Positions 12,494 through 36,934 of a stretch of 64,000 nucleotides of DNA are shown piece after piece. Every line of letters starts with the position of its first letter. Positions within the stretch are counted from its first letter, which is position 1. This stretch comes from an uncultured Clostridia bacterium. Lineage in GTDB: Bacteria; Bacillota; Clostridia; UBA1381. The translations under genes and the position numbers were made by a program. The stretch is taken from contig CANQIP010000001.1 in assembly GCA_947623955.1 (NCBI GenBank), positions 124,001 through 188,000 on the forward strand. Direction: 5' to 3'. The notes beneath the pieces were generated by a model that saw nothing but the letters and a program-made list of their open reading frames with translations, had not been told where the DNA came from and did no database searches.

Positions 12494-12518
12494 CATAAAA
12501 GAACATGTTTTTTTCGCG
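12494..12518 (-). promoter_or_regulatory. 25-base phage promoter-like element, copy 1
   Basis: Minus strand: CGCGAAAAAAACAT-GTTC-TTTTATG. It is the most divergent copy of the element described at 32534-32558 but keeps the same 25-base spacing. It lies upstream of the operon encoding the RNA-polymerase-like protein. Confidence 0.55.
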
Positions 12519-12890
12519 TGGAAAATAAAAAGCGGAAAATATAATTTTTCCGTTTATGCCCATTTGCCCGCTTTTTTTCGCATATTATATATAATTTATT
12601 ACTTTTTTCTTCGCAATTAATTAAGATAAAAAGTGGGTTTTTGACCAAAAACACCCGAAAACCGCATAGCTAAGCCATTTTTTCAAGCCCATTTTTGATT
12701 TTAAAAGTGGGCTAAAAGTGGGCTTTTGACCACATTTATGACCATTTTTTCAGATTTCTTAATAATTTTGTAACAATTTTTGACCATTCTTCCAAACAAA
12801 AGTGGGCTTTTGACCATTTTTTAAGTCAAAAACGGGCATCATTTCAGCAAAAAATAAGAGCGCAAGTTTGTCTTACGTTCTTAAATTTTG
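12519..12890. repeat. A+T-rich intergenic region with iteron-like repeats (possible replication origin)
   Basis: No gene is visible in this 370-base stretch. It holds direct repeats of the type AAAAGTGGGCTTTTGACCA: near 12629-12650 (GTGGGTTTTTGACC), 12702-12712 (short form), 12714-12735, and 12797-12820. Partial copies sit at about 12777 (TTTTTGACCATT) and 12827 (AAAAACGGGCAT). A very A+T-rich tract (TATTATATATAATTTATTA, 12583-12601) lies beside them. Repeats next to a melting-prone tract are typical of replication origins bound by an initiator, but an operator array is also possible. Confidence 0.6.
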
Positions 12891-13202
12891 TTACCTTTCC
12901 ATCACCAAATTCATATATCGATTGCCTTCCGGAGTATTGAACACTCCTTTTAATACCACATTCCTACGCTTTTCGTTTAACGATTTCCCCGATTCACTTT
13001 TATAACGATACTTCATATCGTCAAATTTGCGCCTGATTTCTTTGTTAATTTTCAGGTATCGGCGCCTATGTAAAAATATCCGTCTTTTATGGCGGCGATA
13101 TACCCTTATTACAGCGTTTGTGATTATCGCTATAACAAAAAAGGCTGCTATATAGCAGCAAATCGTAAAAATGTTTAATATAATAATACTCGTATTACTC
13201 AT
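12891..13202 (-). CDS. Small membrane protein with basic cytoplasmic tail
   Basis: About 103 residues. A hydrophobic segment (SIIILNIFTICCYIAAFFVI...) near the N-terminus is followed by a very basic region (RVYRRHKRRIFLHRRRYLKINKEIRRKFDD), so it is a single-pass membrane protein with an inside tail that could bind nucleic acid or lipid. A GGAGG site lies 12 bases before ATG 13202. ATG 13214 (107 residues) touches the site and is less likely. I do not recognise the family. Confidence 0.65.
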   Translation of the reverse strand: MSNTSIIILNIFTICCYIAAFFVIAIITNAVIRVYRRHKRRIFLHRRRYLKINKEIRRKFDDMKYRYKSESGKSLNEKRRNVVLKGVFNTPEGNRYMNLVMER

Positions 13203-13249
13203 TGTTTTTTTCATCCTCCATATCCTATTTTTGTGTACAGTAGGCTTCC

Positions 13250-13582
13250 TCAGAATTTTTTATTGTGTTTATATGGTCTTGTTTCATTGAAAGCCATTTT
13301 TTCATTGATTGATTTTTCCAAATCAATGCCATAATAATCTGCCATTTCAAAACATCTAATTACGACATCTGCCAATTCAGATGGGATACCCTCCGGTTTT
13401 CCATCAGAAGAATTATAATACGTTTGCGTCGCTATATGACCGACGCGAAATTCCTCCAGCACCTCTGAAACCTCGCCATGTATTAGCGCAATGAAATCTG
13501 TAGCCTTTAATGGTTCATCTCTAAACCCATGTGCCGCGCTCGTTTTCCCTGCAGCTTTTATTAATTCTTGCAATTGTGACAT
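13250..13582 (-). CDS. MazG-like nucleotide pyrophosphohydrolase
   Basis: A 110-residue all-helical protein with the MazG/dUTPase-like signature: ALIHGEVSEVLEEFRVG carries the E-x-x-E pair and SELADVVIRCFEMADYYG the E-x-x-D pair that bind magnesium. Such phage proteins remove unwanted nucleoside triphosphates or (p)ppGpp-related nucleotides. Length suits a single MazG domain. AGGAGG site present. It lies three bases from the next gene upstream. Confidence 0.85.
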   Translation of the reverse strand: MSQLQELIKAAGKTSAAHGFRDEPLKATDFIALIHGEVSEVLEEFRVGHIATQTYYNSSDGKPEGIPSELADVVIRCFEMADYYGIDLEKSINEKMAFNETRPYKHNKKF

Positions 13583-13584
13583 TT

Positions 13585-14322
13585 CTAATCCTCCTTCTCT
13601 CCTATGATAATTTCGCTATACGGCAAAGTCTTGATCCATTTACAGAACTCCCGCCATTCATCAAGTTTATGATCCATGCGATATTTATAGATGCTGGCAA
13701 GGACTTCGTAATTCAGCATAATAGTACGCTTTTGGTTGTACGAAGACGGCAGTAGTTGTATCATCTGCCACCAATATATTTTATCTTTGGTTTCCAAGTA
13801 GTATTCGCGACACTTATTGAGCATCGCAATCGTGAAATTCAATAGAGCAGAAGGACTCCAAGATAACTTTATCTCATCGGTTACTTCGTATTCCAAACGA
13901 CACTCACGAGGTTCATCGTCAATGCTGACGAGATGTTCGGTTGAGAAATCATCTCTGGTAAATTTCTTATCTGCAATCTTGTGCATGGTAGAACATGAAT
14001 TCGCTACTGTGCCGACCTTATATGTGTCAAACTCCTTCCACCAATATAATGGAGCGGTAATATCAACGTATACCGTAATCATTCGGCGATACTTCGCATG
14101 AACTGGACCACCTCTGGAAAGTCTCATCATTAAGTCATGGTCATTCCGACCCATTATGATATCCTCGTCATGATTAGTTGGTCCCGAATTTCCGCAAATA
14201 TCGTGATACTCACCATCGATATTAAATGTACTATCGCTCCTATCCCAACTGTTCATCGGATTCCGCATTCCGCGAATCGCCGCCTCCCAGCCGAATACTT
14301 CTGTTTTTTCAAGTTTAATCAT
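13585..14322 (-). CDS. Conserved protein, possible distant ThyX relative (homologue of host gene at 58234)
   Basis: The 245-residue protein shares long segments with the host protein encoded at 58234-58902. Both have an EVFGW/EVYGF start, RGMRNP, and the run VDIT(A/G)PLYWWKEFDTYKVGT followed by VANS-STMHK, and both have an LP(S)S..Q.RT segment later. The placement of H-x-K-x-x-R..I.V.VDIT, then aromatic and D-T-Y-K residues, then S-T-M-H recalls the FAD/dUMP-binding part of ThyX thymidylate synthases, but the RHR-x7-S motif is absent, so activity is doubtful. The homology is seen; the ThyX link is a guess. Confidence 0.6.
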   Translation of the reverse strand: MIKLEKTEVFGWEAAIRGMRNPMNSWDRSDSTFNIDGEYHDICGNSGPTNHDEDIIMGRNDHDLMMRLSRGGPVHAKYRRMITVYVDITAPLYWWKEFDTYKVGTVANSCSTMHKIADKKFTRDDFSTEHLVSIDDEPRECRLEYEVTDEIKLSWSPSALLNFTIAMLNKCREYYLETKDKIYWWQMIQLLPSSYNQKRTIMLNYEVLASIYKYRMDHKLDEWREFCKWIKTLPYSEIIIGEKED

Positions 14323-14636: not shown

Positions 14637-14659
14637 TTTAGAACCTCCACAATAGATTA

Positions 14660-15835: not shown

Positions 15836-15862
15836 ATATATTCCTCCTATTTTTTAATTTTA

Positions 15863-17228: not shown

Positions 17229-17235
17229 AAATATC

Positions 17236-18745: not shown

Positions 18746-18770
18746 CATAATAGCCATTGTATTTTTCGCG
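18746..18770 (-). promoter_or_regulatory. 25-base phage promoter-like element, copy 2
   Basis: Minus strand: CGCGAAAAATACAA-TGGC-TATTATG, starting directly after the stop codon of the SF2 helicase gene and followed by AAAGGAG. Confidence 0.65.
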
Positions 18771-21712: not shown

Positions 21713-24700
21713 TTATTCTCCTTTTTCTTTGCTGTTCAGCACAACGCTTGAAATATCATGCCCGTGCTGACAGTCGGCATGAAATTTATCTTCGTAATAA
21801 TGAGGACAATCAAAGCACGTCAAATACTTGTTATCCCCGCATGGCACTTTCGCCGCGTAGTCCTCTTTTTTCTTGGGAATATAAGAATCGTCCGAAACAA
21901 ACCATTCAAAGTCGCCGTACTGTGAAATATCCATTACGGCATTGTCTACCATGTTATCGTAGTATGAACGGTCAATATCCGCCTCTTTCCCAAGCGTCTT
22001 GACCATTTCGGCTTCGAGCCATCTGTACCCCTTTGTTCCGCCGGCAGCATAATACTTGCCGTCTTTTTCACGCATAAGCAATCCGCCGCCGCACCCCGGC
22101 TTTATCGGACAAAACCTTCCGACTTTTCCGACAAATTTGTAGTCATGTTCGTCCTCATCCTGTAAGTCTTCGTTCATATCCAGATACAACGCCGTACTTA
22201 CCGATTTCGTTTCGCACATATCGTCAAATATAATTTCTTCGCGACTAAACAGCTTCTTAAACACATACGGAACATGAAACTCTGTTCCTGTTGCCGTCCA
22301 GTCGCCGTCCTTATACTTTGCGATATATACGGCATCGTTGACAAGACACATACGGTCATATGTAGCCTCGTGTTCAAACGTATATCCGTATTTCTTACCG
22401 TAGGATATTACAAAATCTATAATTTCCTGAGTCGCATCGGGAATTTTTATAGAATCGGTTTTAATGTGTGCAACGGTATACCCTCGTTTCTGAACCTCGT
22501 GCTTGAGGTCTATCATAAACAGCGCGCCGCGTTTAGCAACAATATTGTCTACATTCCGGCTATCTCTGAACGGATTTTCGAAGCTTGCTGAAGTTAAACC
22601 GTATACAGAATTTATAGCGATTTTCAGTGCCTGAGCCAAATCCTTAGCCGTACCTTCGTCGGTTAAGTATTTCGCCAGTTTCCCACCAAGCATTTTCTTC
22701 GCTTTATCGAATTCTTTATGCTTGATAGCGATGCGAACGTCTAAAATATCTTTGAAGTGCCGCGTATACTCGTCACCAAATAAATTCTCCGCGATTATGC
22801 TTGACGGGTGCATAGACGCAACATCAAGCAACGCCACATTGCCGTACATACCCGGTTCGGAATATACATAACCGCCTTCGCCGACTTCTTCACCGCGGTA
22901 AATGGACTTTCCATGGTCGTAAACATAACCGGAAAAATAAGGCAATAAGCTTCCCGCCTCGCCATGGGTTTTTGTCATCATATCGGGGCATAACTCCGAT
23001 AATACAGAATACTCATGCTCATCCAAGTCGTATACAGGTTCGGCAAGATTGCGATAGTTAAACTGGCTTTGCGGGTTTTTATTTCTTCCGAATATAATTC
23101 TCATGGTCAGTGAATTTGTGGTATCGTTCACAGTCATGCCCGCTACATCCGCCAGAATTTGTCTTGCGAGAAAATCGGACTTACGAGCATTGAATACGGC
23201 TTCGGTTGCGATTACATCATTATCGCAGTATTCGGCGACTTTTGTCCACATTTCTTCAGGCACAGGCTTATCCCAAGGAAGACCGAGTTCTTGGTGATGT
23301 ATTCCGAGCTCAATCTCGAATTTCTTCAAAGACTGTTTCTTGCTCGAAAAGTCGTAAACGTCCGTATACGATACGTTATATGCCTCTCCGAAGAAACAAT
23401 TTGTACTGCCGGATATAATTCTCTGAGACAGCCTGTATAACTGTTCGTTATCGTACCCCATCATCCTTGCGTATAAAATATGATTATCATATCGACGACA
23501 GTTAAATCCGACAAGTTTAAATCTCATCAGATTTTCTATCTCTTCCGGTGTCGGATTAATCATACGGACTACCTTCTTACCCTCACCTGCCGATTTCCAG
23601 TTCACAAGGAACAAGTTCGGAAACACCTCGACGTCGTAGAATATCAACTCCGAATCGTCTCCCGAAGATACTTCCGAAATCTCTTCCGATTTGAATTTCA
23701 TTTTGTTTACAAGCTTAATGCAGTAATCCGCTTGATTTGTGCTGTTTGCTGCAAACGACAAAACAGCGTTCCTCATATCGGTAACATCATAATGCAAATC
23801 GCTTGCATATGCGTCTTCAAGTCCCTTAAATATAAAATCCACGCTTGGCTTGGTAGCCGCGTGGTATTCTTTATTCAAGTTCTTTTTTATGAAAGTCCGG
23901 AGAGCTTTTTCACTCTTTATGCCCTCAAAATTCACCATTTTATCTTCTCCTTTCAATGGCAATCCGGAACTTATCTCGGCAACAGCCAGATTATTACATT
24001 TCGTCAGTTTACGCCTTAACGAACTGTCTCCGACCGCGACCTTAATTTCAATATGCTCGTCATATATCCGCTTGAGCTTAACCGGATCGCCGGTATAAAT
24101 ATAATGCAGATGTATACCCGCACCGCTTTTACTGAGCTCCGCATATGTAGCCGGAAATTTTTCGGCAGCTTTGCGATTGAGTTCAAAGTTTTTCTCTCCG
24201 TTTTCATCGGGAATATCAAAGTCGATCACTATGTGATTTTTCGGAACCTTTACATAATGAAGTTTGGTCGTATCCAAATCCGATAATTTGGTGTCAACAT
24301 TGCTCCACTTTTTTATCGGACGTTCCTTGTCGGACGCATACTGAGCCGGGCAATCGGCACACGCTTTGTCAAACTCCGAACTGCTACAATCAAAGCTAAG
24401 CCAAGATTTTTCCGGTTCTTCCGGCACAATATTAGCGTTTGAACCGTCAAATTTATCCGCTCTGAAACCAAGATAATAGCTCCGAACACGAGTTCCGTCA
24501 TCAAGGTTAAACCTTTCCTTATACTCATAAAAATAATTCTTCAGCTCTTCCTTGAATAAACGCTTTGAATACGGATAATTGACCTTTGATTCTTCGTTAT
24601 ACTCGTTATACATCGCCCACGCCGCCTTTAGCGAAACTCCGTTATTCTTTTTGAATACATGATACGAGTCGACCACAAAATTGTAGAAATCATTTGATGC

Positions 24701-25744: not shown

Positions 25745-25766
25745 TACATTAATAACTCTCCTTTCC

Positions 25767-27721: not shown

Positions 27722-28621
27722 TCAAATTAAATCGTATATAATGCCGTCTACATTGAAATCAAGTATGATCGACGGTTCGTCCGCATTGATAAAATCGTGA
27801 GCCCTTTGGTCTGAGCGATAAAGTCCGAAATCTACAAAACCGTCTCTTTCGGGATCATCCGGATCGTATATCCAACCAATCAACTGTCCCGACGATGTTT
27901 TACAAAAGCCGAGCGATTCGTATACGTCGTTCAAGAACAAGAATCCTTGTGCTCTGAGTTTATCATTCGCCCATTGCTCCTGCTGCTTTAAAAACATAAG
28001 ATTGTAGTCGGGCTTTCTCTGCCAGTTTAAGTTTGTTTCGTCGAATATCCGAGCATGCGGGCTTAGGTCGAGCCGTTTTTTTATAACTTTTGTGTCGCCG
28101 GCATCATTTTTACTGTCAAGGCTTGAGCCGACCATTATTTCCCGTTCGACATCTTCACCGAATCGTTCTTTAACTCGCTTACGGTAAGCTTTAAAACTTC
28201 CGTCCACCGCCGCATACGCCGCTGCTATAGCCGCGTTTCGTTTTCTGAGAATATTGTTTGACGCAAGAATGCTCGTAATCGATAATACTCCGAGAATTAC
28301 GGACGGAGCATAGATTTTCGCAAATTTCACACCCGCTTGAGTATACGTCAGAGCGAGATCCTTCTTCTTTCTGTCATCTGTATACGGAACAAGCGAGTCA
28401 CCTTCCGATACGACGTCAGATTCGTGAATGTTTTTGACCGTTTCTTTGGTATCGTCAACGACTTCGCCGATTTTTGTCGTAGCCCTGCACGCCATAACTG
28501 CGCTTACCACAACTCCCGCAACACCGGATATAATAAGTATTTCCGGGCTGTATTTCTTTATTTTAAGACCGGCTTTGCTCAATGTTCTGCCGGCTTTCAC
28601 CATCAATTCTGTCTTTTTCAT
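27722..28621 (-). CDS. DUF6353-like membrane protein, copy 1 (299 aa)
   Basis: It opens with a basic amphipathic segment and the family core KKYSPEILIISGVAGVVVSAVMACRATTKIGEVVDD, the first membrane segment. A second one is KIYAPSVILGVLSITSILASNNILRKRNAAIAAAYAAVDGSFKAYRKRV, followed by a soluble region. The C-terminal part QGFLFLNDVYESLGFCKTSSGQLIGWIYDPDD has the module shared with neighbours. Three such paralogues are in this phage. Function unknown; a membrane-bound host takeover or exclusion role is a guess. AAAGGAG site. Confidence 0.85.
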   Translation of the reverse strand: MKKTELMVKAGRTLSKAGLKIKKYSPEILIISGVAGVVVSAVMACRATTKIGEVVDDTKETVKNIHESDVVSEGDSLVPYTDDRKKKDLALTYTQAGVKFAKIYAPSVILGVLSITSILASNNILRKRNAAIAAAYAAVDGSFKAYRKRVKERFGEDVEREIMVGSSLDSKNDAGDTKVIKKRLDLSPHARIFDETNLNWQRKPDYNLMFLKQQEQWANDKLRAQGFLFLNDVYESLGFCKTSSGQLIGWIYDPDDPERDGFVDFGLYRSDQRAHDFINADEPSIILDFNVDGIIYDLI

Positions 28622-29673: not shown

Positions 29674-29865
29674 TCACCGAACTTCTACAACGTCTTCCGG
29701 AAGACTGATTTTAGCGTTCGCGCACTTGTTGTGTTTTATTTTGTATTGGTAGGCAAGATTGCTTTTAGCCTTTTTTGCGGTAGGAGCATAAGTCGTTCCG
29801 CTCCAATCACGGTCGATATATTTGTCGAATTCCATGACGGGACCGCTGTATTCGTATCTGTTCAT
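29674..29865 (-). CDS. Small conserved phage protein (63 aa)
   Basis: MNRYEYSGPVMEFDKYIDRD then WSGTTYAPTAKKAKSNLAYQYKIKHN is a pattern repeated in gut phage genomes in this neighbourhood. Likely a small basic soluble protein. AAAGAGGTG site. Function unknown. Confidence 0.75.
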   Translation of the reverse strand: MNRYEYSGPVMEFDKYIDRDWSGTTYAPTAKKAKSNLAYQYKIKHNKCANAKISLPEDVVEVR

Positions 29866-29888
29866 TGTAAATCACCTCTTTCGTGATA

Positions 29889-29924
29889 AAACAAAAAGAG
29901 AAAGCGCCCGTGTTACAGGCGCTA
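29889..29924 (-). terminator. Rho-independent terminator
   Basis: Minus strand AGCGCC-TGTAACAC-GGGCGCT followed by TTCTCTTTTTGTTTT, right after the stop of the 85-residue gene and before the next ribosome site. Confidence 0.85.
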
Positions 29925-29946
29925 ACCCTTTGATGAATATTCGTTT

Positions 29947-30204
29947 TTATTCTTCCGTCGTCTTATCATCATCCGAATCATCGTAATCGTTTCGTACAAT
30001 CTCGATGGTCGATGCCTGCTGAGACTTCTTCTTTTCCTTAATCTTGCGCATAATCGGCTTATACGCGTATCTGTAGGCTAATACGCCTACGATAGCCGTT
30101 AAACCGAATCCTGCCGCAATCTTCCAGCCTTTTCCCGAAGTCTTAGCGATCTCTTCTACCGCCTCGATTGCTTCTCCGCTTTCCATGATTTTCGTTTCTT
30201 CCAT
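29947..30204 (-). CDS. Small single-pass membrane protein (85 aa)
   Basis: An acidic N-terminus leads to a hydrophobic segment (IAAGFGLTAIVGVLAYRYAY), then a basic stretch (KPIMRKIKEKKK) and a long acidic tail (DYDDSDDDKTTEE). Positive-inside charge suggests the C-terminus is cytoplasmic. It lies directly behind a 25-base element (30249-30273). Unknown. Confidence 0.7.
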   Translation of the reverse strand: MEETKIMESGEAIEAVEEIAKTSGKGWKIAAGFGLTAIVGVLAYRYAYKPIMRKIKEKKKSQQASTIEIVRNDYDDSDDDKTTEE

Positions 30205-30248
30205 TGTAAAAACTTCCTTTCTTAAATAAATTTTACGAACATTCCGTC

Positions 30249-30273
30249 CATTAAAGCCTTTGTAAATTTCGCG
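30249..30273 (-). promoter_or_regulatory. 25-base phage promoter-like element, copy 3
   Basis: Minus strand: CGCGAAATTTACAA-AGGC-TTTAATG, starting two bases after the stop of the DUF6353 copy 2 gene and upstream of the 85-residue gene. Confidence 0.7.
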
Positions 30274-30275
30274 TA

Positions 30276-31055
30276 TCAGTACCCGCGATAGTCATAGATC
30301 GGCGCAACTTTATAGTCCACAACCAGACAAGGTCTGTTGTCCTCGGTAAGTTGAGAACTGAAATCCAAGTCGATGTAACCTTTATCAACATTCCAGCCCA
30401 ATCCGTAACCTATTTTTATTTCGCCGAGTCCTATTTCATAGTAGAAATCGTTGAGCGAAATATACATTTCGTCCCTCATACGTCGATTTAGATTGTTTTC
30501 AACACGTCTGAGTTTCTCGGCGGTTGATTTAAAATATCGTCCCGATATCGTATCGTAACAGAGCGCATCTCCGTCTCCGGTGATTACGACTTCCTTTTTG
30601 CTTACAGGGTCGTTTTGTATTTTTCCCTTAGCGATCGCGTCGCGTATTGTCTGTTCTTTTTTCTCTCCTATAAGCTCGACCGCCTTTTCACGGTATTCTC
30701 TTAAAGCTGTTTCAGACAGAGTATAGGCTGTCGCGAGAGCAGCGTTTCTGTGTAAGTTTACCGAGCTTGCGCCGATAATACAAGCAATAGATAAACCACC
30801 CGTTATAGCCGTCGGAATATAACAAGTCCATGCCGCTTTTACCTTCTCAAGTCTTGTTGTTTCGATAAAACAATTATCGTCCTCATCATACGAAATTTCG
30901 CTGATACGGTCTAATGCTTTCGGCGTAGCTCTGACAGCCATCACGATTGTTGTGACCATTCCCGCGATACCCATACCGATGAGTATTTCGGGACTATGCT
31001 TTTTCAGCATAAAACCCACATTTCTGGCAAATTTGGATAGATTTACCTTTTTCAT
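30276..31055 (-). CDS. DUF6353-like membrane protein, copy 2 (259 aa)
   Basis: The core FMLKKHSPEILIGMGIAGMVTTIVMAVRATPKAL and the second segment WTCYIPTAITGGLSIACIIGASSVNLHRNAALATAYTLSETALREYREKAVELIGEKKE match copies 1 and 3. The C-terminal part has MYISLNDFYYEIGLGEIKIGYGLGWNVDKGYIDLDF, the shared module. About 30 percent or more looks alike by eye between copies. AAGGAAGGAG site; it overlaps the stop of the next upstream gene by four bases. Confidence 0.88.
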   Translation of the reverse strand: MKKVNLSKFARNVGFMLKKHSPEILIGMGIAGMVTTIVMAVRATPKALDRISEISYDEDDNCFIETTRLEKVKAAWTCYIPTAITGGLSIACIIGASSVNLHRNAALATAYTLSETALREYREKAVELIGEKKEQTIRDAIAKGKIQNDPVSKKEVVITGDGDALCYDTISGRYFKSTAEKLRRVENNLNRRMRDEMYISLNDFYYEIGLGEIKIGYGLGWNVDKGYIDLDFSSQLTEDNRPCLVVDYKVAPIYDYRGY

Positions 31056-31417
31056 GCCTTTTCTCCTTCCTTAGAAATATCCGCAGTCAGCAATAATCCG
31101 TGTTCCTGACAGAAGTCCGACATATGCTGTGCGGCTTCGTCTCCCATATAACGGCGTATGCAATCTACCGTTATACCTACTTCAAGAAGATCCGTATAGA
31201 AATCAAGTTCATCTGTATTAGGGTTATTTGCTGCATCTTTAAAATGTTCTTCAAGCTGTGACGCCATGTCGCAATCATTTTCCGTTTCAAGAAGAACATT
31301 ATCCGGTTTATCCTTATACCCAAATACAAATATAACAGGACGACCATCGCCACTACATATTACATCAGCATCGGGGTTGTATTTACTTAGCTCTTGAATT
31401 AGCCTTCTTACTTTCAT
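31052..31417 (-). CDS. Conserved phage protein (121 aa)
   Basis: Starts MKVRRLIQELSKYNPDADVI, the 'L...L.KYDPDADV' start found in many small phage and host proteins of unknown function. The middle is acidic with C-x-x-x-L clusters, and the end has CIRRYMGDEAAQHMSDFCQEHG. AAAGGAGAG site. It is coupled to DUF6353 copy 2. Confidence 0.7.
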   Translation of the reverse strand: MKVRRLIQELSKYNPDADVICSGDGRPVIFVFGYKDKPDNVLLETENDCDMASQLEEHFKDAANNPNTDELDFYTDLLEVGITVDCIRRYMGDEAAQHMSDFCQEHGLLLTADISKEGEKA

Positions 31418-31446
31418 AATTTCTCTCCTTTCAAATATAACAACAA

Positions 31447-31475
31447 AAGAAAAAGAGTCCTTGAATCAGGACTCA
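31447..31475 (-). terminator. Rho-independent terminator
   Basis: Minus strand GAGTCC-TGATTCAA-GGACTC followed by TTTTTCTTTT, overlapping the stop of the 62-residue gene. Its stem is almost the same as that at 32559-32587. Confidence 0.85.
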
Positions 31476-31654
31476 TTATCTTTGTCGTCTTCATCAGACT
31501 CTTTTTCGTCTCTTTCGGCAAGAGCCTCTCTTATTTTTGTGTCAATCATTTCCTCGGTCTTACGCTCTTCCGCCCAGTTGGATGCCAATGTAGCTATTCC
31601 GCCAAGCAACGTAGCCGCACAACCGATTACGCTTATTAACCATTTGTGTTTCAT
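31466..31654 (-). CDS. Small single-pass membrane protein (62 aa)
   Basis: MKHKWLISVIGCAATLLGGI begins a membrane segment; the rest is a charged acidic tail (EERKTEEMIDTKIREALAERDEKESDEDDK). GAAAGGAGG lies directly after the element at 31671-31695. Unknown family; one of many such anchors in this region. Confidence 0.7.
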   Translation of the reverse strand: MKHKWLISVIGCAATLLGGIATLASNWAEERKTEEMIDTKIREALAERDEKESDEDDKDNES

Positions 31655-31670
31655 AAACTCTTCCTCCTTT

Positions 31671-31695
31671 CATAATATAAATTGTGTTTTTTGCG
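31671..31695 (-). promoter_or_regulatory. 25-base phage promoter-like element, copy 4
   Basis: Minus strand: CGCAAAAAACACAA-TTTA-TATTATG, starting two bases after the TAA of DUF6353 copy 3 and running straight into the AAAGGAGG site of the next gene. Confidence 0.65.
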
Positions 31696-31697
31696 TA

Positions 31698-32483
31698 TTA
31701 TTTGTTGTAGTAATCCCCCTCCATCATCGGAGCTACCATCGGTGTGATAATGTAGCACTCCAATCCATCATCCATTTTAGCAAGCGAATTATCGAAGTCA
31801 AGCCATGATAATCCGTATTCCAGCATCTCATCAAAATACCAGCCGAGGATGTCACCATTCTCAACGTGTTCTATACCCAAGAAGTCGGAGAATTCGTTTA
31901 GAGTTATATAGCCTTGTAACTGAATCATACGATTCACATGGTATTCAGCATTAATAACAGCCGGCAGCGTTGACGAAAAATATCGTTTCGTACAGCTATC
32001 GTAAAACAATATTTTTTCATTATTGAAGTCATCCTCAAATGAATATAACCCCGTACCATCCGCGCTTATATAAACGTTTTTAGCGACCTCAGCTATGATT
32101 TTTGCATCGGAATCTTCACCATACAACTTTTTCGTAACTTCGCGATACTCTTTATACGATTTACTAAGCATCGTATACGCACCGATAAGTAAAGCATTTT
32201 GCCGCTTGTTTATGGCGTTGGCTCCGAATATGCAAGCTATTGTTGCGGTTCCCGCTATTGCCGTAGGAATATAATACTTCCACGACAAGCGTACCATTTC
32301 CATTTTTGTTGGTTTTTGCGGTACCTCTTGTACACGTTCCAAAGCCTTCGGTGCGGCTCTTGCCGCCAGCACTGCTGTGACGATAACACCGACCGCCCCC
32401 ACACAGGTTAAAATGGTCGGCGAGGCTTTTTTCAAACGTGCCAAAGATTTGTAGCACATTTGATGCAATTTTTGTTTGTTCAT
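31698..32483 (-). CDS. DUF6353-like membrane protein, copy 3 (261 aa)
   Basis: LKKASPTILTCVGAVGVIVTAVLAARAAPKALERV and SWKYYIPTAIAGTATIACIFGANAINKRQNALLIGAYTMLSKSYKEYR are the two conserved membrane segments of the family. The C-terminal half has GYITLNEFSDFLGIEHVENGDILGWYFDEM, the shared module. Second and third copies are the closer pair, sharing YIPTAI and APKAL. CGAAAGGAG site behind an element copy at 32534. Confidence 0.88.
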   Translation of the reverse strand: MNKQKLHQMCYKSLARLKKASPTILTCVGAVGVIVTAVLAARAAPKALERVQEVPQKPTKMEMVRLSWKYYIPTAIAGTATIACIFGANAINKRQNALLIGAYTMLSKSYKEYREVTKKLYGEDSDAKIIAEVAKNVYISADGTGLYSFEDDFNNEKILFYDSCTKRYFSSTLPAVINAEYHVNRMIQLQGYITLNEFSDFLGIEHVENGDILGWYFDEMLEYGLSWLDFDNSLAKMDDGLECYIITPMVAPMMEGDYYNK

Positions 32484-32533
32484 TTTTCTTTTCTCCTTTC
32501 GAAAATATAAAAGAAACAGTTAAACCGTCTCTC

Positions 32534-32558
32534 CATAATAGCGCTTGTAAATTTCGCG
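32534..32558 (-). promoter_or_regulatory. 25-base phage promoter-like element, copy 5 (consensus type)
   Basis: Minus strand: CGCGAAATTTACAA, four bases (GCGC), then TATTATG. The TATTAT part could serve as a -10 box, but no TTGACA lies 17 bases upstream. Instead the conserved CGCGAAATTTACAA sits where the spacer should be. It lies after the terminator at 32559-32587 and ahead of the gene for DUF6353 copy 3. Thirteen copies keep the same spacing and orientation. Confidence 0.8.
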
Positions 32559-32587
32559 CAAAAGAAAAGAGTCCTTATTAGGACTCA
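32559..32587 (-). terminator. Rho-independent terminator
   Basis: Minus strand GAGTCC-TAATAA-GGACTC followed by TTTTCTTTT, overlapping the last codons of the 72-residue gene and ending where the promoter-like element begins. Confidence 0.88.
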
Positions 32588-32796
32588 TTTTCTTCGCCAT
32601 TATGTTCGGTTGAATTGTTTGTTTTTCTCTTTGTAGCCGCGTCCAGTAAGACATCAATAATTCTTAATCCGTAGTACACGCCGGTACATATTACGGTTAT
32701 ACGCCCTATTCTGGCGTACCGCAATAATTTATCTGCGTCCCTTCCGGTAAAAGTAATGAGTCTTACCGCAACTTCTTCTCCATTCTTTAATACCAT
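32578..32796 (-). CDS. Small phage protein, possibly membrane-associated (72 aa)
   Basis: MVLKNGEEVAVRLITFTGRD, then RYARIGRITVICTGVYYGLRIIDVLLDAAT, a moderately hydrophobic stretch that could cross the membrane, then a hydrophilic end. TTAAGGAGG site behind an element at 32824-32848. Unknown. Confidence 0.65.
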   Translation of the reverse strand: MVLKNGEEVAVRLITFTGRDADKLLRYARIGRITVICTGVYYGLRIIDVLLDAATKRKTNNSTEHNGEENES

Positions 32797-32823
32797 AATA
32801 ATTCCTCCTTAAACATATAGTTT

Positions 32824-32848
32824 CATAATAGCGCTTGTAAATTTTGCG
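32824..32848 (-). promoter_or_regulatory. 25-base phage promoter-like element, copy 6
   Basis: Minus strand: CGCAAAATTTACAA-GCGC-TATTATG, starting a few bases after the stop of the 119-residue gene and upstream of AAGGAGG and the 72-residue gene. Confidence 0.8.
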
Positions 32849-32851
32849 TCC

Positions 32852-33211
32852 TTATATATCGCGTCTATCGAATACCGTTTCCCAGCGTTCTTTTGGCAGC
32901 GGTTTCATTTTAAGAGCCCACATAATTTGCCGTATTGTTACCGTAGGATATAATCCGCCCACGCAGATCGATGCTCGCGCGTCAAAATATTCTTTGAACT
33001 TTGGATGTAAATATAAACTATCAGTAAGCCACGGGTCGATTTCGCCCCACCACGTAGTTTTGGTATTCGGATCAAACCGTTGCTGTATGACAGCCAAACC
33101 TCTTTCATCTATTTCCAAAAGCGTACATCTGCTATATACCGGATGATTGCAAATATAAGTCCGTCCGTACATAGAAAGGTATAGCGCGGGCTTTTTATAG
33201 TGGTAACGCAT
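32852..33211 (-). CDS. Conserved phage protein (119 aa) with WALKMKPLP..RWET motif
   Basis: MRYHYKKPALYLSMYGRTYI..HPVYSRCTLLEIDERGLAVIQQRFDPNTKTTWWGEIDPWLTDSLYLHPKFKEYF is a strongly conserved pattern in gut phages, ending YPTVTIRQIMWALKMKPLPKERWETVFDRRD. I know it as a common hypothetical; a role in DNA or cell-wall modification has not been shown. CGGAGGAAAT site before the ATG. Confidence 0.85.
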   Translation of the reverse strand: MRYHYKKPALYLSMYGRTYICNHPVYSRCTLLEIDERGLAVIQQRFDPNTKTTWWGEIDPWLTDSLYLHPKFKEYFDARASICVGGLYPTVTIRQIMWALKMKPLPKERWETVFDRRDI

Positions 33212-33280
33212 GGATTTCCTCCGAAAATAAAAAGATTTTCAGATAAAAATATAACATGTATTTTGGTAAAGTATGTGATG

Positions 33281-33312
33281 AAAAAAAAAAGAAGCCCTTG
33301 TTCGGGGCTCCT
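33281..33312 (-). terminator. Rho-independent terminator
   Basis: Minus strand GGAGCCCC-GAACAA-GGGCTTC followed by a run of ten T, at the end of the 63-residue gene. The hairpin is identical to that at 34136-34165. Confidence 0.85.
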
Positions 33313-33316
33313 TCTA

Positions 33317-33508
33317 TTAATTTTTTCGAAGATGAATTTTATCCATCAATGACTTAAATTTACCACTGCATTTCACAGGTATATCAGTAAGGGTGGATAT
33401 GGCGAATATCAATATTCCAATTAAACTGATTATCGCGCATATACCGCTAAACTTCATATACCCACCCCATGTTATGGGTTGTTTAAGCTTCTTTGTGATG
33501 TTTTTCAT
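33317..33508 (-). CDS. Small single-pass membrane protein (63 aa)
   Basis: MKNITKKLKQPITWGGYMKF leads into FSGICAIISLIGILIFAI, a membrane segment, then a basic end. The 'KQPITWG.Y.K' start is familiar from small gut phage proteins. AAAGGAGAG precedes ATG 33508; an upstream in-frame ATG lacks a site. Confidence 0.7.
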   Translation of the reverse strand: MKNITKKLKQPITWGGYMKFSGICAIISLIGILIFAISTLTDIPVKCSGKFKSLMDKIHLRKN

Positions 33509-33535
33509 AATAATCTCTCCTTTACAAATTATTTC

Positions 33536-33560
33536 CATAACAGCATTTGTAAATTTCGCG
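33536..33560 (-). promoter_or_regulatory. 25-base phage promoter-like element, copy 7
   Basis: Minus strand: CGCGAAATTTACAA-ATGC-TGTTATG, directly after the T-run of the terminator at 33561-33590 and before the 63-residue gene. Confidence 0.8.
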
Positions 33561-33590
33561 CAAAAAAAAAAGAGCCCTTGTCGGGGCTCA
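33561..33590 (-). terminator. Rho-independent terminator
   Basis: Minus strand GAGCCCC-GACAA-GGGCTC followed by ten T, just after the stop of the 88-residue gene. Confidence 0.88.
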
Positions 33591-33595
33591 GTTTA

Positions 33596-33862
33596 TTACG
33601 TGTTTTTATAAACGCCAAATATCATAAGGACATTTTTATCTATTATGTAAGATACACAATAATCGTTCGGAATATAATTTGCCGCTATATGGTATTCTAT
33701 ATTTTTCCCAAATTTCAACATGCCCTCAGACAGGTACTTGTATCCCATGGAAACAAACTTTTCTCCAATCGCGTACAGTATTTTTTCCAAAACCGATAAA
33801 GGTATAATAATAGGATTTTTAATATCCACCTTTATTATTTTTTTCTGTTTTCGTTTATTCAT
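33596..33862 (-). CDS. Hypothetical phage protein (88 aa)
   Basis: A basic, hydrophobic protein (MNKRKQKKIIKVDIKNPIII...) with FGKNIEYHIAANYIPNDYCVSYIIDKNVLMIFGVY near the end, likely alpha/beta. AGGGAGTG precedes ATG 33862. No family recognised. Confidence 0.6.
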   Translation of the reverse strand: MNKRKQKKIIKVDIKNPIIIPLSVLEKILYAIGEKFVSMGYKYLSEGMLKFGKNIEYHIAANYIPNDYCVSYIIDKNVLMIFGVYKNT

Positions 33863-33877
33863 TATAAACACTCCCTT

Positions 33878-33902
33878 CATAACATACGTTGTAAATTATG
33901 CG
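33878..33902 (-). promoter_or_regulatory. 25-base phage promoter-like element, copy 8
   Basis: Minus strand: CGCATAATTTACAA-CGTA-TGTTATG, between the terminator at 33903-33932 and the AGGGAGTG site of the 88-residue gene. Confidence 0.7.
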
Positions 33903-33932
33903 AAAAAAAGAAAAGTCCCTGTTAGGACTTTT
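33903..33932 (-). terminator. Rho-independent terminator
   Basis: Minus strand AAGTCC-TAACA-GGGACTT followed by TTCTTTTTTT at the stop codon of the 56-residue membrane protein. Confidence 0.85.
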
Positions 33933-34092
33933 TCTTTTTTATAAGATGTCTTATAAATAATACTATGAGTGCAATACATACTATGATGTCGCCGAATATT
34001 ATGATAAATGTTGCGCCGCCAACACTTATGGCAAACACTGTAAATATCACTAAGAACAGCAACATGAGTATTAATATAGCCAATAATATCAT
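33922..34092 (-). CDS. Small two-segment membrane protein (56 aa)
   Basis: MILLAILILMLLFLVIFTVF starts a first membrane segment; a second follows (FIIIFGDIIVCIALIVLFI) and a basic tail RHLIKKKKS. GAAGGAGG is close to ATG 34092. The gene exactly fills the space between an element copy and a terminator. Confidence 0.7.
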   Translation of the reverse strand: MILLAILILMLLFLVIFTVFAISVGGATFIIIFGDIIVCIALIVLFIRHLIKKKKS

Positions 34093-34109
34093 TTTATATC
34101 AACCTCCTT

Positions 34110-34134
34110 CATAATATACATTGTAAAAAATGCG
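34110..34134 (-). promoter_or_regulatory. 25-base phage promoter-like element, copy 9
   Basis: Minus strand: CGCATTTTTTACAA-TGTA-TATTATG, between the terminator at 34136-34165 and the GAAGGAGG site of the 56-residue gene. Confidence 0.7.
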
Positions 34135-34135
34135 C

Positions 34136-34165
34136 ATAAAAAGAAGCCCTTGTTCGGGGCTCCTT
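34136..34165 (-). terminator. Rho-independent terminator
   Basis: Minus strand GGAGCCCC-GAACAA-GGGCTTC followed by TTTTTAT, after the zinc-ribbon gene. Confidence 0.85.
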
Positions 34166-34172
34166 TCGGTAA

Positions 34173-34445
34173 TCAATCGTCTAACTCGCCGTAGACCTCA
34201 TCATATGTTTCGCCGCAGTCATCTTCGTCTTCTTCGTCAGACCCGAGGAATTCCTCTTCACTCGGGTATAGAGCATCATAATCTTCATCGTCTTCGTGTC
34301 CGTATCGGTCATAATCCAATGAATGACCGCATTCGGGACATACTAACGAATCTTCATTTTCAAATTCCATTTTAGCTCCGCACTGACTGCAAATATAATC
34401 TCCGCCAAACATAGCGTCCACAACGTCTTTGTTAAAAAATCCCAT
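34173..34445 (-). CDS. Zinc-ribbon protein with acidic tail (90 aa)
   Basis: YICSQCGAKMEFENEDSLVCPECGHSLDYD is a two-knuckle zinc ribbon (C-x2-C ... C-x2-C). The remaining half is very acidic (SEEEFLGSDEEDEDDCGETYDEVYGELDD), resembling a DNA mimic or protein-docking tail. It has its own consensus-like sigma-A promoter at 34486-34514 and a terminator, so it is probably made in the lysogen. AGAAAGGAGG site. Confidence 0.8.
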   Translation of the reverse strand: MGFFNKDVVDAMFGGDYICSQCGAKMEFENEDSLVCPECGHSLDYDRYGHEDDEDYDALYPSEEEFLGSDEEDEDDCGETYDEVYGELDD

Positions 34446-34485
34446 AAGATTACCTCCTTTCTGTTTGCAAATAGTTTATACAAAC

Positions 34486-34514
34486 ATTGTACAAGCTATC
34501 TGTGAATTAGTCAA
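34486..34514 (-). promoter_or_regulatory. Sigma-A promoter of the zinc-ribbon gene
   Basis: Minus strand TTGACT (34509-34514), 17-base spacer, TACAAT (34486-34491). Confidence 0.88.
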
Positions 34515-34534
34515 GAGATAAAGCTTTATGCTCT

Positions 34535-34559
34535 CTTAATATACCATGTAAAATTTGCG
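34535..34559 (-). promoter_or_regulatory. 25-base phage promoter-like element, copy 10
   Basis: Minus strand: CGCAAATTTTACAT-GGTA-TATTAAG, directly after the terminator T-run and upstream of the sigma-A promoter and the zinc-ribbon gene. Confidence 0.6.
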
Positions 34560-34560
34560 C

Positions 34561-34599
34561 AAAAAAAAATAAGAGGCAATGCAGTTTGCACGCCTCTTA
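34561..34599 (-). terminator. Rho-independent terminator
   Basis: Minus strand AAGAGGC ... GCCTCTT (14-base loop) followed by ATTTTTTTTT, just beyond the stop of the 144-residue gene. Confidence 0.85.
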
Positions 34600-34609
34600 A
34601 ATTTCCGTA

Positions 34610-35044
34610 TCAGATTCCTTTTGTCGGTCTGAAACGACTGATTAAACTCCGGAACGTTGATGAAGTAATCGAGCCGGTTTCTTCGAATTTGAACCCTTTG
34701 TGCATCCAGATTCCATAGAACACAAGCGGTAATACGATTCCCGCAGCCTCAAGTCCATATCTGAAATATCGACCTTTGTGATCTTCTCTTTCCTGATTTC
34801 GCTTAAAAGTCTCCTCGTTCTGCCGACCTTCGATATCGCTGTCAAGCTTTCTCTCGTCAAGTTCGCGCCGGACTGACTTTTCCTCGATTTCAGCTTCGAG
34901 CTTAGCTTCGTCGATCCTCAGTTTGTGAAGCTTTGTTAAATCGTCAATGGCTTCCGTTCTGGATTTTCCATCGCCTCTAAGGGGTAAATCTCTAATCTGC
35001 CTTTCGATTTCTTCATCAAGTAACTCCTTGATTCCTTCTTCCAT
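34610..35044 (-). CDS. Coiled-coil, C-terminally membrane-anchored phage protein (144 aa)
   Basis: A long charged helical region (EEIERQIRDLPL...LTKLHKLRIDEAKLEAEIEEKSVRRELDERKLDSDIEG...) precedes a membrane segment YGLEAAGIVLPLVFYGIWMHKG and the motif KFEETGSITSSTFR, which recurs in gut phage proteins of this kind. ATG 35044 follows AAAGGAGTG; an earlier in-frame ATG overlaps the promoter-like element and is less likely. Function unknown. Confidence 0.75.
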   Translation of the reverse strand: MEEGIKELLDEEIERQIRDLPLRGDGKSRTEAIDDLTKLHKLRIDEAKLEAEIEEKSVRRELDERKLDSDIEGRQNEETFKRNQEREDHKGRYFRYGLEAAGIVLPLVFYGIWMHKGFKFEETGSITSSTFRSLISRFRPTKGI

Positions 35045-35083
35045 TCGTTTCACTCCTTTCTTTAAAATGTAACCAATACGGTC

Positions 35084-35108
35084 CATAAAAGCAAATGTTA
35101 TTTGCGCG
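35084..35108 (-). promoter_or_regulatory. 25-base phage promoter-like element, copy 11
   Basis: Minus strand: CGCGCAAATAACAT-TTGC-TTTTATG, overlapping the last codons of the 85-residue gene and preceding the 144-residue gene. Divergent but same length. Confidence 0.55.
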
Positions 35109-35355
35109 GAATATAGTCTTCTATTTTTACTTCAAATTGTACGTAATCTTTAAGGTAGACGTCCTCGATATTGCTTAGCTCCAAAAACAAGTAAGGCGGC
35201 TCGCTTTTATCCGAATTGTCTACCCTTAATATCCCGACGGATTTTATACGATGTTTACGTTTGCCGATATAATATCCAACGCTGATACTTGTTATAATAG
35301 ATGCAATAAGAAGAATAATTTCAGCTACGCTTAAAGAAATGCCAAGTATATTCAT
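35098..35355 (-). CDS. N-terminally anchored membrane protein (85 aa)
   Basis: Residues 8-30 (LSVAEIILLIASIITSISVGYYIG) form one membrane segment, followed by KRKHRIKSVGILRVDNSDKSEPPYLFLELSNIEDVYLKDYVQFEV, a small cytoplasmic beta-rich domain with the 'G.L.......P.LFLEL......' pattern of gut phage proteins. GAAAGGAG site. Unknown function. Confidence 0.72.
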   Translation of the reverse strand: MNILGISLSVAEIILLIASIITSISVGYYIGKRKHRIKSVGILRVDNSDKSEPPYLFLELSNIEDVYLKDYVQFEVKIEDYIPRK

Positions 35356-35390
35356 AGATGTATGTCTCCTTTCTCAAAAATTTTTTGCAT

Positions 35391-35425
35391 AAAAAAGAGA
35401 GCCGAACCTTATGCTCGACTCTCGG
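35391..35425 (-). terminator. Rho-independent terminator
   Basis: Minus strand GCCGAGAGTCGA-GCATAAGG-TTCGGCTCTC followed by TTTTTTAT. It ends the unit of the Cys-rich 58-residue gene. Confidence 0.8.
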
Positions 35426-35434
35426 CTTATTATG

Positions 35435-35611
35435 TTAAAGTTTCTCGTTAGGACAACTTTTGCGACATTCCGGATAGGTCGGAAATCCGCATACCGTACA
35501 TAAATCAGAATGTCTTCCGTCATCTGGGTATTCTTCGTCTCTTGACCCAATATATTTAAATCCTGTATTCGTAAGTTCGTAAGTATCAACGTGTATAGTT
35601 TTCGTTTTCAT
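35435..35611 (-). CDS. Small Cys-rich zinc-finger-like protein (58 aa)
   Basis: The frame reads MKTKTIHVDTYELTNTGFKY..GSRDEEYPDDGRHSDLCTVCGFPTYPECRKSCPNEKL. C-x-x-C plus C-x-x-x-C form a compact zinc site. AAGGAG lies before ATG 35611, and a perfect sigma-A promoter and a terminator flank it. It thus forms a one-gene unit that the host can express in the lysogen. A different frame over the same bases is longer but lacks a ribosome site. Confidence 0.78.
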   Translation of the reverse strand: MKTKTIHVDTYELTNTGFKYIGSRDEEYPDDGRHSDLCTVCGFPTYPECRKSCPNEKL

Positions 35612-35643
35612 AACGATTTCTCCTTATTATCATTCTAAGATGT

Positions 35644-35672
35644 ATTATAACAAAATATAACTTCCATGTCAA
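35644..35672 (-). promoter_or_regulatory. Consensus sigma-A promoter of the Cys-rich gene
   Basis: Minus strand TTGACA (35667-35672), 17-base spacer, TATAAT (35644-35649): a perfect match to the housekeeping consensus, unlike the other phage promoters. Confidence 0.92.
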
Positions 35673-35673
35673 T

Positions 35674-35710
35674 AAAAAAGTAAAGGTCATGTATTACACA
35701 CAACCTTTAC
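35674..35710 (-). terminator. Rho-independent terminator
   Basis: Minus strand GTAAAGGT ... ACCTTTAC with a 13-base loop, followed by TTTTTT, after the 64-residue gene. Confidence 0.8.
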
Positions 35711-35729
35711 CGCGGTTAGGATACGAGAA

Positions 35730-35924
35730 CTATGAGATAAGTATACGATACTTCTCTTCCAGCTCTAAAGCTTTTTGCTTGTCTTGTGCTGATATGCCAA
35801 TTTTGTAAACTATTTTCTTATTCTCGGTTTCTGTAACTTCGACAATAAATTTTACTTTTTCAGCATAGAGTAAACGCAAGCAAATATCAAGCTGTTTAGG
35901 CGTTTTCGCTAAAAGTTCTCTCAT
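35730..35924 (-). CDS. Small phage protein (64 aa)
   Basis: MRELLAKTPKQLDICLRLLY followed by AEKVKFIVEVTETENKKIVYKIGIS is a helix followed by beta strands. ATG 35924 has AAAGGAGGAG just after the element at 35943-35967; upstream in-frame codons cross that element. Unknown family. Confidence 0.7.
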   Translation of the reverse strand: MRELLAKTPKQLDICLRLLYAEKVKFIVEVTETENKKIVYKIGISAQDKQKALELEEKYRILIS

Positions 35925-35942
35925 ATTGGATCTCCTCCTTTC

Positions 35943-35967
35943 CATAAGAGGAGATGTAGGTTTCGCG
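35943..35967 (-). promoter_or_regulatory. 25-base phage promoter-like element, copy 12
   Basis: Minus strand: CGCGAAACCTACAT-CTCC-TCTTATG, followed at once by the AAAGGAGGAG site of the 64-residue gene. Confidence 0.6.
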
Positions 35968-36013
35968 CAAACTATATTCTTACTCGCTTTTTCCAAATTA
36001 TATGCCATTCTGC

Positions 36014-36427
36014 TCACCCTCTCTCTTTATCCAGCAGCCAGAAGAACTTCCTATATAAATCGTAGTATGTATCTCGGCAGCACGGTACGCCGATACGTGC
36101 GTTAAGCACATCATACGATAATCCCTCGGTTACGCCTTTGAGAACGTATTCCGCTAATTCCAAGCACGCTTTCTTTGCTGTTTTCTCGATTAACTCGATC
36201 CGCTCGAAATAATATGACCGTTCAATGACGCATCGAGCCGTCGGGTCGTCGATGTTGTTTGTTCTGGAAACTTTTTCCAAGTCCATTGGGTAAACACTCG
36301 CTCCTTGTAATTTGGCAAGTATTTTCTTCCACGCCGGATACTGTAAGCAAAAATGCTTAAGTTCATAATACCGATGCCTCGGTAACCACCATTTGTTCTT
36401 TTCCGATACTTCTGCTCTTACTCCCAT
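36014..36427 (-). CDS. Conserved phage protein (137 aa), possible regulator
   Basis: KNKWWLPRHRYYELKHFCLQYPAWKKILAKLQG, then RSYYFERIELIEKTAKKACLELAEYVLKGVTEGLSYDVLNARIGVPCCRDTYYDLYRKFFWLL. The all-helical pattern with RxYYELKHFCLQYP is common in clostridial phages and recalls ArpU/RinA-type late transcription regulators, but I cannot show homology. GAAAGGAG site. Confidence 0.78.
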   Translation of the reverse strand: MGVRAEVSEKNKWWLPRHRYYELKHFCLQYPAWKKILAKLQGASVYPMDLEKVSRTNNIDDPTARCVIERSYYFERIELIEKTAKKACLELAEYVLKGVTEGLSYDVLNARIGVPCCRDTYYDLYRKFFWLLDKERG

Positions 36428-36484
36428 TTTCTTTTTCTCCTTTCAAAATATAATAATCTGGGTGTTTTTCCTGACATTTCTATT

Positions 36485-36559
36485 CTAAATTAGAATTACG
36501 CTTATGTAAAAACAAAGTCGGTGGAAATAACACGTCTGCCTCTTTTTGTTCTGTACCAT
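36485..36559 (-). CDS. Possible 24-residue peptide
   Basis: ATG 36559 with AAAGGAG eight bases upstream opens a 24-codon frame (MVQNKKRQTCYFHRLC...) between a hairpin and the 137-residue gene. It might be a leader peptide or chance. Confidence 0.3.
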   Translation of the reverse strand: MVQNKKRQTCYFHRLCFYISVILI

Positions 36560-36580
36560 GTTTTTAACTCCTTTCATCAA

Positions 36581-36613
36581 AAATAAAAAGAAGCCGAATA
36601 ATCAGCCTCTTCA
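36581..36613 (-). terminator. Terminator-like hairpin downstream of element copy 13
   Basis: Minus strand GAAGAGGCTGATTATTCGGCTTC followed by TTTTTATTTTT; an imperfect stem ending the DUF6431-like gene. It also lies downstream of the promoter-like element, so it may attenuate. Confidence 0.6.
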
Positions 36614-36934
36614 TAATAGCGTTTGTAAATTTCGCGCACGCCAGCGTTTCATGGTCATTTCGCATGGATAATCTTCATATCCAAGAGTATCGGACGTTAT
36701 AAGTCCTTCTGTTACTCCGATTATTATTTCCGACTCATATTGTTTGTACGGAAATATAATTTTAGGAATCATTCTATGTATAGTACCACATGCTTTGCAC
36801 CGGAATCTTTTTATTCTTATCCAAACCGTTCTCCGCATCTTCGTCCGTACAATTCTCTTAACGCTGTCATAGTATTTCAATTTTCTTCCGCATTTCGGAC
36901 ATACTGTTTCCCGTTCGGTAATCAAGTGTACCAC
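36611..36934 (-). CDS. Zinc-ribbon protein, DUF6431-like (107 aa)
   Basis: VCPKCGRKLKYYDSVKRIVR ... IKRFRCKACGTIHRMIPKIIFPYKQYESEIIIGVTEGL, then YPCEMTMKRWRARNLQ. The layout (C-x2-C ... C-x2-C followed by H-R-x-x-P-x-x-x-x-P-x-x-x-Y) is that of small zinc-ribbon proteins related to transposase and DNA-binding N-termini. GTG start 36934 with AAGGGTGG. The end of the gene overlaps element copy 13. It is the first phage gene from the attachment site. Confidence 0.8.
   Translation of the reverse strand: MVHLITERETVCPKCGRKLKYYDSVKRIVRTKMRRTVWIRIKRFRCKACGTIHRMIPKIIFPYKQYESEIIIGVTEGLITSDTLGYEDYPCEMTMKRWRARNLQTLL
36612..36636 (-). promoter_or_regulatory. 25-base phage promoter-like element, copy 13
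   Basis: Minus strand: CGCGAAATTTACAA-ACGC-TATTATG, within the last codons of the DUF6431-like gene, upstream of a hairpin and the 137-residue gene. Confidence 0.75.

Follow-up and report, generated by a model that had tools for sequence, protein, structure and literature searches.

A repeated 25-base-pair element in a Clostridia prophage is a probable promoter for the phage's own single-chain RNA polymerase

A prophage of an uncultured Clostridia bacterium carries a short, rigid element ahead of many of its genes. The copies were noticed in a 64,000-nucleotide (nt) stretch of contig CANQIP010000001.1 (assembly GCA_947623955.1, positions 124,001 to 188,000), referred to below as the window, in which all positions are given unless stated otherwise. 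We propose, with a probability of roughly 80% and from sequence evidence, that this 25-base-pair element is the promoter of a single-chain RNA polymerase (RNAP) encoded by the prophage itself at 8868-11603. That the phage enzyme reads the element is inferred from the co-occurrence of the two, the helix-turn-helix (HTH) domains of the polymerase, the missing sigma-70 geometry and one correlated change. An initial annotation had offered two roles for the element, a promoter for a phage polymerase or a stoperator of the mycobacteriophage L5 type; the first gains from the findings that relatives bearing the RNAP keep the motif and that both family membership and predicted fold mark the gene then singled out as an RNA polymerase.

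Copies and layout of the element

The element is present at all 13 coordinates of the initial annotation, each copy being 25 bases long and on the minus strand (Table 1). The literal form given there, CGCGAAATTTACAA-N4-TATTATG, is exact at only two of these sites (32534 and 36612), and the other 11 differ from it, six of them beyond three mismatches. Seven of the 13 fall within three mismatches, against 0.02 expected from shuffles, and the remaining six are more degenerate. A weight matrix was trained on 261 sites from other loci, with the window, its sub-loci and the near-identical locus L132 excluded; it is not fully independent, because many training loci were fetched with a pattern derived from the window. 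At a score of at least 14, the matrix returned exactly the 13 sites in the window (scores 19.6-36.2), whereas 100 shuffled windows gave five matches in total, the highest of which (19.3) lay below every real site. A degenerate pattern allowing up to two mismatches found 15 prophage sites in the whole 2.13-Mb genome, all on the minus strand, and one weak match elsewhere; the reversed pattern gave one match in the same genome. The motif scan of the full prophage that had been called for thus adds two copies to the left of the window (contig 1:108368 and 109571). Judged from its open reading frames (ORFs), the prophage begins at an integrase-like ORF close to contig position 100,157 and ends at about 161,000. 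The copies are multiple, share one orientation, precede phage genes and are not spread over the host chromosome.

Most copies stand just before a ribosome site, as first described: a Shine-Dalgarno (SD) sequence and a start codon follow within 75 nt at 12 of 13 sites (14 of 15 with the outside pair), the exception being 34535. Seven of the 15 sites have an SD starting at +2 to +5, within a full range of +2 to +59. Each copy had also been placed at a stop codon or terminator and ahead of a gene. A hairpin with a T-run directly precedes five copies (32534, 33536, 33878, 34110 and 34535; -11.3 to -17.2 kcal/mol), and a weaker one (-9.2 kcal/mol) precedes the copy at 12494.

Table 1. Positions of the element, the polymerase gene and an associated hairpin in the window.
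Feature	Position	Strand	Remarks
Single-chain two-barrel RNA polymerase gene, 911 aa	8868..11603	-	Assigned by family and predicted fold
Terminator-like hairpin	12450..12494	-	First 45 nt after predicted +1 of RNAP operon; -17.8 kcal/mol
Element	12494..12518	-	Before nuclease/exonuclease/RNAP operon; same element in L132; matrix
Element	18746..18770	-	SD at +4; matrix
Element	30249..30273	-	SD at +31; matrix
Element	31671..31695	-	SD at +3; matrix
Element, exact consensus	32534..32558	-	After terminator; leader hairpin 32534-32510; matrix
Element	32824..32848	-	SD at +15; matrix
Element	33536..33560	-	After terminator; SD at +15; matrix
Element	33878..33902	-	After terminator; SD at +5; matrix
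Element	34110..34134	-	After terminator-like hairpin; SD at +2; matrix
Element	34535..34559	-	After terminator-like hairpin; no SD nearby; sigma-70-like box pair just downstream (34514-34486); matrix
Element	35084..35108	-	SD at +27; matrix
Element	35943..35967	-	SD at +4; matrix
Element, exact consensus, first of array	36612..36636	-	Leader hairpin 36612-36587; matrix

Anatomy of the element across relatives

The core of the element is CGC-N7-ACA-N5-TNTNATG followed by purines, and 275 unique core sites are found in 93 loci. Positions 1-3 form a CGC box and positions 11-13, roughly one turn of the helix further, an ACA box; the TNTNATG block occupies 19-25 and purines 26-28. The linkage of the two halves was examined after removal of the sites used for selection, with each half picking sites in which the other was counted. 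Among 50 sites chosen by the upstream half, T19 was present in 43, T21 in 44, A23 in 46, T24 in 49, G25 in 45 and a purine at 26 in all 50; among 99 chosen by the downstream half, C1, G2 and C3 were present in 96, 99 and 92, respectively. In loci that had not been chosen by motif, each of these three bases was found in 20 of 20 sites, and position 26 was a purine in 207 of 209 non-selection sites. An SD and start codon lie within 100 nt of 236 of the 275 sites, compared with 567 of 1375 random positions. The CGC box is usual across lineages, with exceptions in Lactococcus phages: TTT replaces it in eight of ten copies in P078, and CAC does so in six of the 11 TATAGT copies of phage 1706.

Many actinophage copies continue into AGACCCC. 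At four actinophage loci (L126, L127, L129 and L131), a near-constant leader, AGACCCCTAYGAAAGG, often stands between the element and the SD, which is more than a promoter requires.

The polymerase

The product of 8868-11603 is, on its predicted fold, a two-barrel single-chain enzyme with the Asp triad in one chain, and the modelled one-chain core and triad agree with the class that includes QDE-1, YonO, crAss gp66 and P23-45 gp64. The motif GAD-x-DGD occupies residues 518-524. A C-terminal HTH spans residues 871-911, and helices and weak matches point to probable N-terminal HTHs within about residues 40-122. Sigma70_r4_2, a sigma-region-4-like HTH, is matched at E<=0.01 by 26 of 28 family members. 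Arg120 is invariant in 28 of 28 members and is replaced by Thr in P078, the phage that has lost CGC from most copies; we count this correlated change toward the polymerase reading the element.

The fold comparison was made by VIA-align over the top 1000 chains from Foldseek, and crAss gp66 was absent among the best 50 of those 1000. Sequence searches of the PDB gave either no matches or HTH, designed-repeat and chance matches, together with a weak match at E 0.63 to the tape-measure protein of a phage. YonO belongs to phrog_8308, which is absent from the 13 PHROG matches of the window protein, a member of phrog_4291; the Secretariat RNAP matches phrog_8308 weakly (E 3e-4). In about 250 phage records, members of the family are annotated as 'RNA-dependent RNA polymerase', 'HTH protein' or 'hypothetical'.

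The GenBank record of Lactococcus phage 1706 names the polymerase (orf75) 'structural protein', perhaps after its detection by mass spectrometry, and the name is repeated in a note for ReqiPoco6. In addition, HHGILGMKWG in a small protein beside the terminase (6535-6948) resembles HYG-x(2)-R-x-SGRYPWGSG at the polymerase N-terminus, and L121 and L126 contain HHG...KWG tags of a like kind. By sequence resemblance, such a tag is possibly a virion-packaging tag.

Co-occurrence of element and polymerase

Of 50,697 phage records searched with tblastn, 250 contain the polymerase, each at less than 60% identity; among them are phages of Arthrobacter, Gordonia, Streptomyces, Lactococcus, Curtobacterium, Microbacterium, Rhodococcus and Faecalibacterium. 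The initial annotation had made any such role depend in part on conservation of the motif in related phages, and all ten RNAP-bearing records considered, some of them in part, proved to contain lineage forms of the element; they come from phages of Firmicutes and Actinobacteria (FP_oengus, MT835495, Cheesy, HotFries, Secretariat, P078, 1706, contig89, Pippin15 and ReqiPoco6). An unsupervised motif search recovered the element in six of eight stretches. It was not the top motif in Cheesy (L125) or HotFries (L126), where targeted scans found it, and in Pippin15 (L130) its copies came mixed with terminator-like sequences and were confirmed by a targeted scan.

The reverse approach, picking contigs by motif, also led to the polymerase. 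Phrog_4291 is present in 39 of 70 distinct contigs (30/50 and 9/20), many of which are fragments, and the actinophage form of the motif picked 32 contigs, 19 with the polymerase; the 250 in 50,697 phage records given above serve as the base rate. Among contigs of at least 50 kb, the RNAP is encoded in the same genome in 36 of 39 (22/25 and 14/14). The three exceptions all carry a DNA polymerase and a terminase and look truncated before the RNAP gene. One (G009) ends 1.1 kb past the DNA polymerase and, at its other end, within the small genes that separate terminase from RNAP in the window; another (G042) stops 4 kb beyond an ORF of helicase size, the window RNAP starting about 7 kb past the helicase. 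Although one core per motif contig is present by selection, 48 of 50 contigs hold at least two cores and some as many as 12. The cores of a contig share one strand in 49 of the 50, G027 having two on the opposite strand, and the reversed pattern has no match in these 50 contigs.

Predicted start of RNA

Transfer RNA genes that follow the element directly offer a measure of the RNA start. ARAGORN called 29 tRNA or tRNA-like genes in 94 loci, and 24 of the 29 begin 0-6 nt after the element (bases 26-32), a raw count that includes several cases of the same phage repeated. One begins at 41 nt, and for four no match was found upstream: one of these sits at the edge of a locus, two are farther off, and one (L141) has a variant element 4 nt from the tRNA. 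Most of these loci were selected by motif, which makes the pairing commoner without determining its distance. In FP_oengus, the tRNA as called starts at base 26. With this spacing, RNA would start no later than base 26, which is too early for a sigma-70 promoter. These sequence positions strongly imply a start of RNA at the element.

The element's own ATG was considered as a start codon and dropped, since tRNA genes also come after the element. Many of the tRNA-like genes directly after an element have odd or unreadable anticodons (tRNA-??? or stop; L045-L118, and L123 at 2935-3006), and a T-run follows the tRNA in the three cases read. Instead of being ordinary tRNAs, these genes could provide decoys or substrates for repair.

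The polymerase operon and its leader

A copy of the element also lies upstream of the polymerase itself in a number of relatives. At least ten of the 11 core bases are found within 1.6 kb upstream in 18 of 45 RNAP loci, 0.9-1.35 kb before the gene, where 0.52 would be expected; on the other strand, none of the 45 loci has one. The first 50 nt were folded at these 18 sites and at two nine-of-11 sites (n=20, with 25 RNAP loci left out). The RNAP-operon leaders have a mean z of -2.91, with 12 of 20 at z <= -2, compared with -0.47 and 18 of 200 at other sites; eight of the 20 are not significant individually. G25 is paired in 11 of 20 such leaders compared with 46 of 275 sites, and in four more the next base is the first to pair. 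In the window, the terminator-like hairpin near +1 of the operon may be a brake on transcription or may insulate the operon from the host enzyme.

Evidence against the assignment, and alternative explanations

Several observations weigh against the proposal that the phage polymerase reads the element. A DNA polymerase-primase, which the window encodes at 21713-25840 as primase/helicase-like parts fused to DNA polymerase parts (phrog_4210), has almost the same distribution over phages as the RNAP (252 records, compared with 249 for the RNAP, at >=80% cover), and co-occurrence therefore does not single out the RNAP. The third RNAP-less contig (G034) continues for 9 kb beyond its DNA polymerase, and no RNAP or helicase-sized ORF is seen there; it is likely truncated before the RNAP, and counts against the proposal in so far as this is not proven. 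The strict core is absent upstream in 27 of 45 RNAP loci, for some of which lineage forms were derived. The link between Arg120 and CGC comes from one lineage, and phage 1706 keeps the Arg yet has CAC in over half its copies. Similarity to YonO is barely detectable (BLASTP 25.8 bits, hhalign probability 1%), several actinophages and P078 end the element in TATAAT, which a host enzyme could read, and the tRNA spacing has the limits given above.

That ending is also the basis of a different explanation, which we consider unlikely, in which host RNAP uses TATTAT or TATAAT as a -10 and a phage activator bound to CGC-N7-ACA replaces the -35. T4 MotA, a phage activator that works in place of a -35, provides a likeness. 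TATAATG is common among actinophage copies and in P078, many actinophage copies retain A at the equivalent of -11, and the prophage also offers host promoters in the same region: within the early array, a minus-strand promoter of sigma-70 type (35672-35644; 12/12 match plus TG before the -10) is probably host-read, judged by its sequence. However, position 20, which corresponds to -11A, holds an A in just 23 of the 50 sites chosen by the upstream half (T in 22, G in four, C in one) and in 110 of 209 non-selection core sites, and many Faecalibacterium copies read CTTTAT. No -35 is apparent by eye at sigma-70 distance upstream of the 13 sites, as first noted, and a scan for sigma-70 matches of at least 10/12, covering 29800-37300 only, did not report the TNTNAT block of any element as a -10. 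If transcription began 6-7 nt after the -10, the start would fall inside tRNA acceptor stems and SD sites. The sigma-70 pattern, with a -35 at 16-18 nt, a conserved -11A and a start 6-8 nt after the -10, was thus not found.

The suggestion that the copies are stoperators, L5-like asymmetric sites at which a repressor blocks transcription in a lysogen, fares worse and appears very improbable. Short, oriented, mostly intergenic sites in many copies in a prophage would suit it, but tRNA genes 0-6 nt downstream and the purine run fit a start rather than a stop signal. The L5 consensus does not appear to resemble the element. The element is also found in Arthrobacter phage Cheesy, of the genus Mudcatvirus; a paper on 46 Arthrobacter phages, Mudcat included, states that Galaxy alone encodes an integrase. 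Least credible of all, to the point of being nearly negligible, is a leader-RNA or translation element (a start-associated sequence) acting beside the ribosome site, which would account for the SD and start after 12 of 13 window copies but is disfavoured by untranslated tRNA genes that carry the element at similarly close spacing and by the variable distance to the SD.

Proposed mechanism and relation to known systems

If the element is the promoter of the phage RNAP, the built-in HTH domains of the polymerase would read the CGC and ACA boxes, the TNTNATG block would melt, and RNA would start at about G25, or at 26. Most early genes (30-36.6 kb) would each have their own start, five of them right after a terminator. 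The copy at 12494 would start the polymerase operon and so provide positive feedback, and transcription from it may continue into the terminase, head and tail genes. More speculatively, the polymerase is perhaps carried in the virion, and the elements would then be the first promoters used on infection. We regard as rather doubtful the wider proposal that this lineage of Firmicutes and Actinobacteria phages (about 250 records) has an autonomous transcription system in which a virion-borne two-barrel RNAP with sigma-like HTHs would use one promoter code across phyla, RNA would start at or next to the first tRNA base, and a leader hairpin would govern the polymerase's own operon.

Promoters of T7 type are about 23 bp long and rigid, with a melting block abutting +1 and purine-rich first bases. 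The element resembles them in its rigidity, its predicted melting block at +1 and its purine-rich start, whereas the T7 polymerase fold is unrelated and the boxes differ.

Closer parallels are found among two-barrel enzymes. YonO of SPbeta transcribes the late operon of its phage, and the paper states its promoter sequence to be undetermined and leaves open how a promoter is found without sigma (PMC5467207). Like YonO (Nat Commun 2017, PMC5467207), the window enzyme is by predicted fold a single-chain RNAP of the two-barrel superfamily, but the two differ in PHROG family, and YonO has one mapped start where an array is present here. In Thermus phage P23-45, two motifs upstream of phage genes were assigned to virion and non-virion RNAPs, and relatives without the virion RNAP lack its motif (Nat Commun 2024, PMC10770324). 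The present case is similar in that conserved motifs before phage genes are attributed to single-chain two-barrel RNAPs, and promoters for this enzyme class are therefore not new as such. Start-associated sequences and intergenic repeats of actinophages are likewise repeated asymmetric motifs in short gaps before genes, although the sequence of cluster EC differs from the element (PMC7302621). The same paper reports sigma-factor genes in clusters EC and EI, and its passages on cluster EL mention no motif. Passages reached by term searches in papers on Arthrobacter, Gordonia, Microbacterium, Rhodococcus and Faecalibacterium phages do not mention the element, and the open-licence literature searched yielded no account of the promoter code that this RNAP family uses. 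The proposal turns an annotation puzzle into a testable transcription system with start sites predicted to the base. It suggests a compact promoter-polymerase pair, and a possible solution to the question of how single-chain two-barrel RNAPs locate promoters in the absence of sigma.

Other features of the prophage

A DUF6431 zinc-ribbon ORF (36611-36934) lies at the right edge of the prophage, its 3' end overlapping the first element; the family is usually transposon-linked. The early region also encodes three look-alike proteins (27722-28621, 30276-31055 and 31698-32483), of which the first two match phrog_2152, the first also matches DUF6353 and the third was placed by eye. Three DUF6353 proteins are likewise annotated in FP_oengus.

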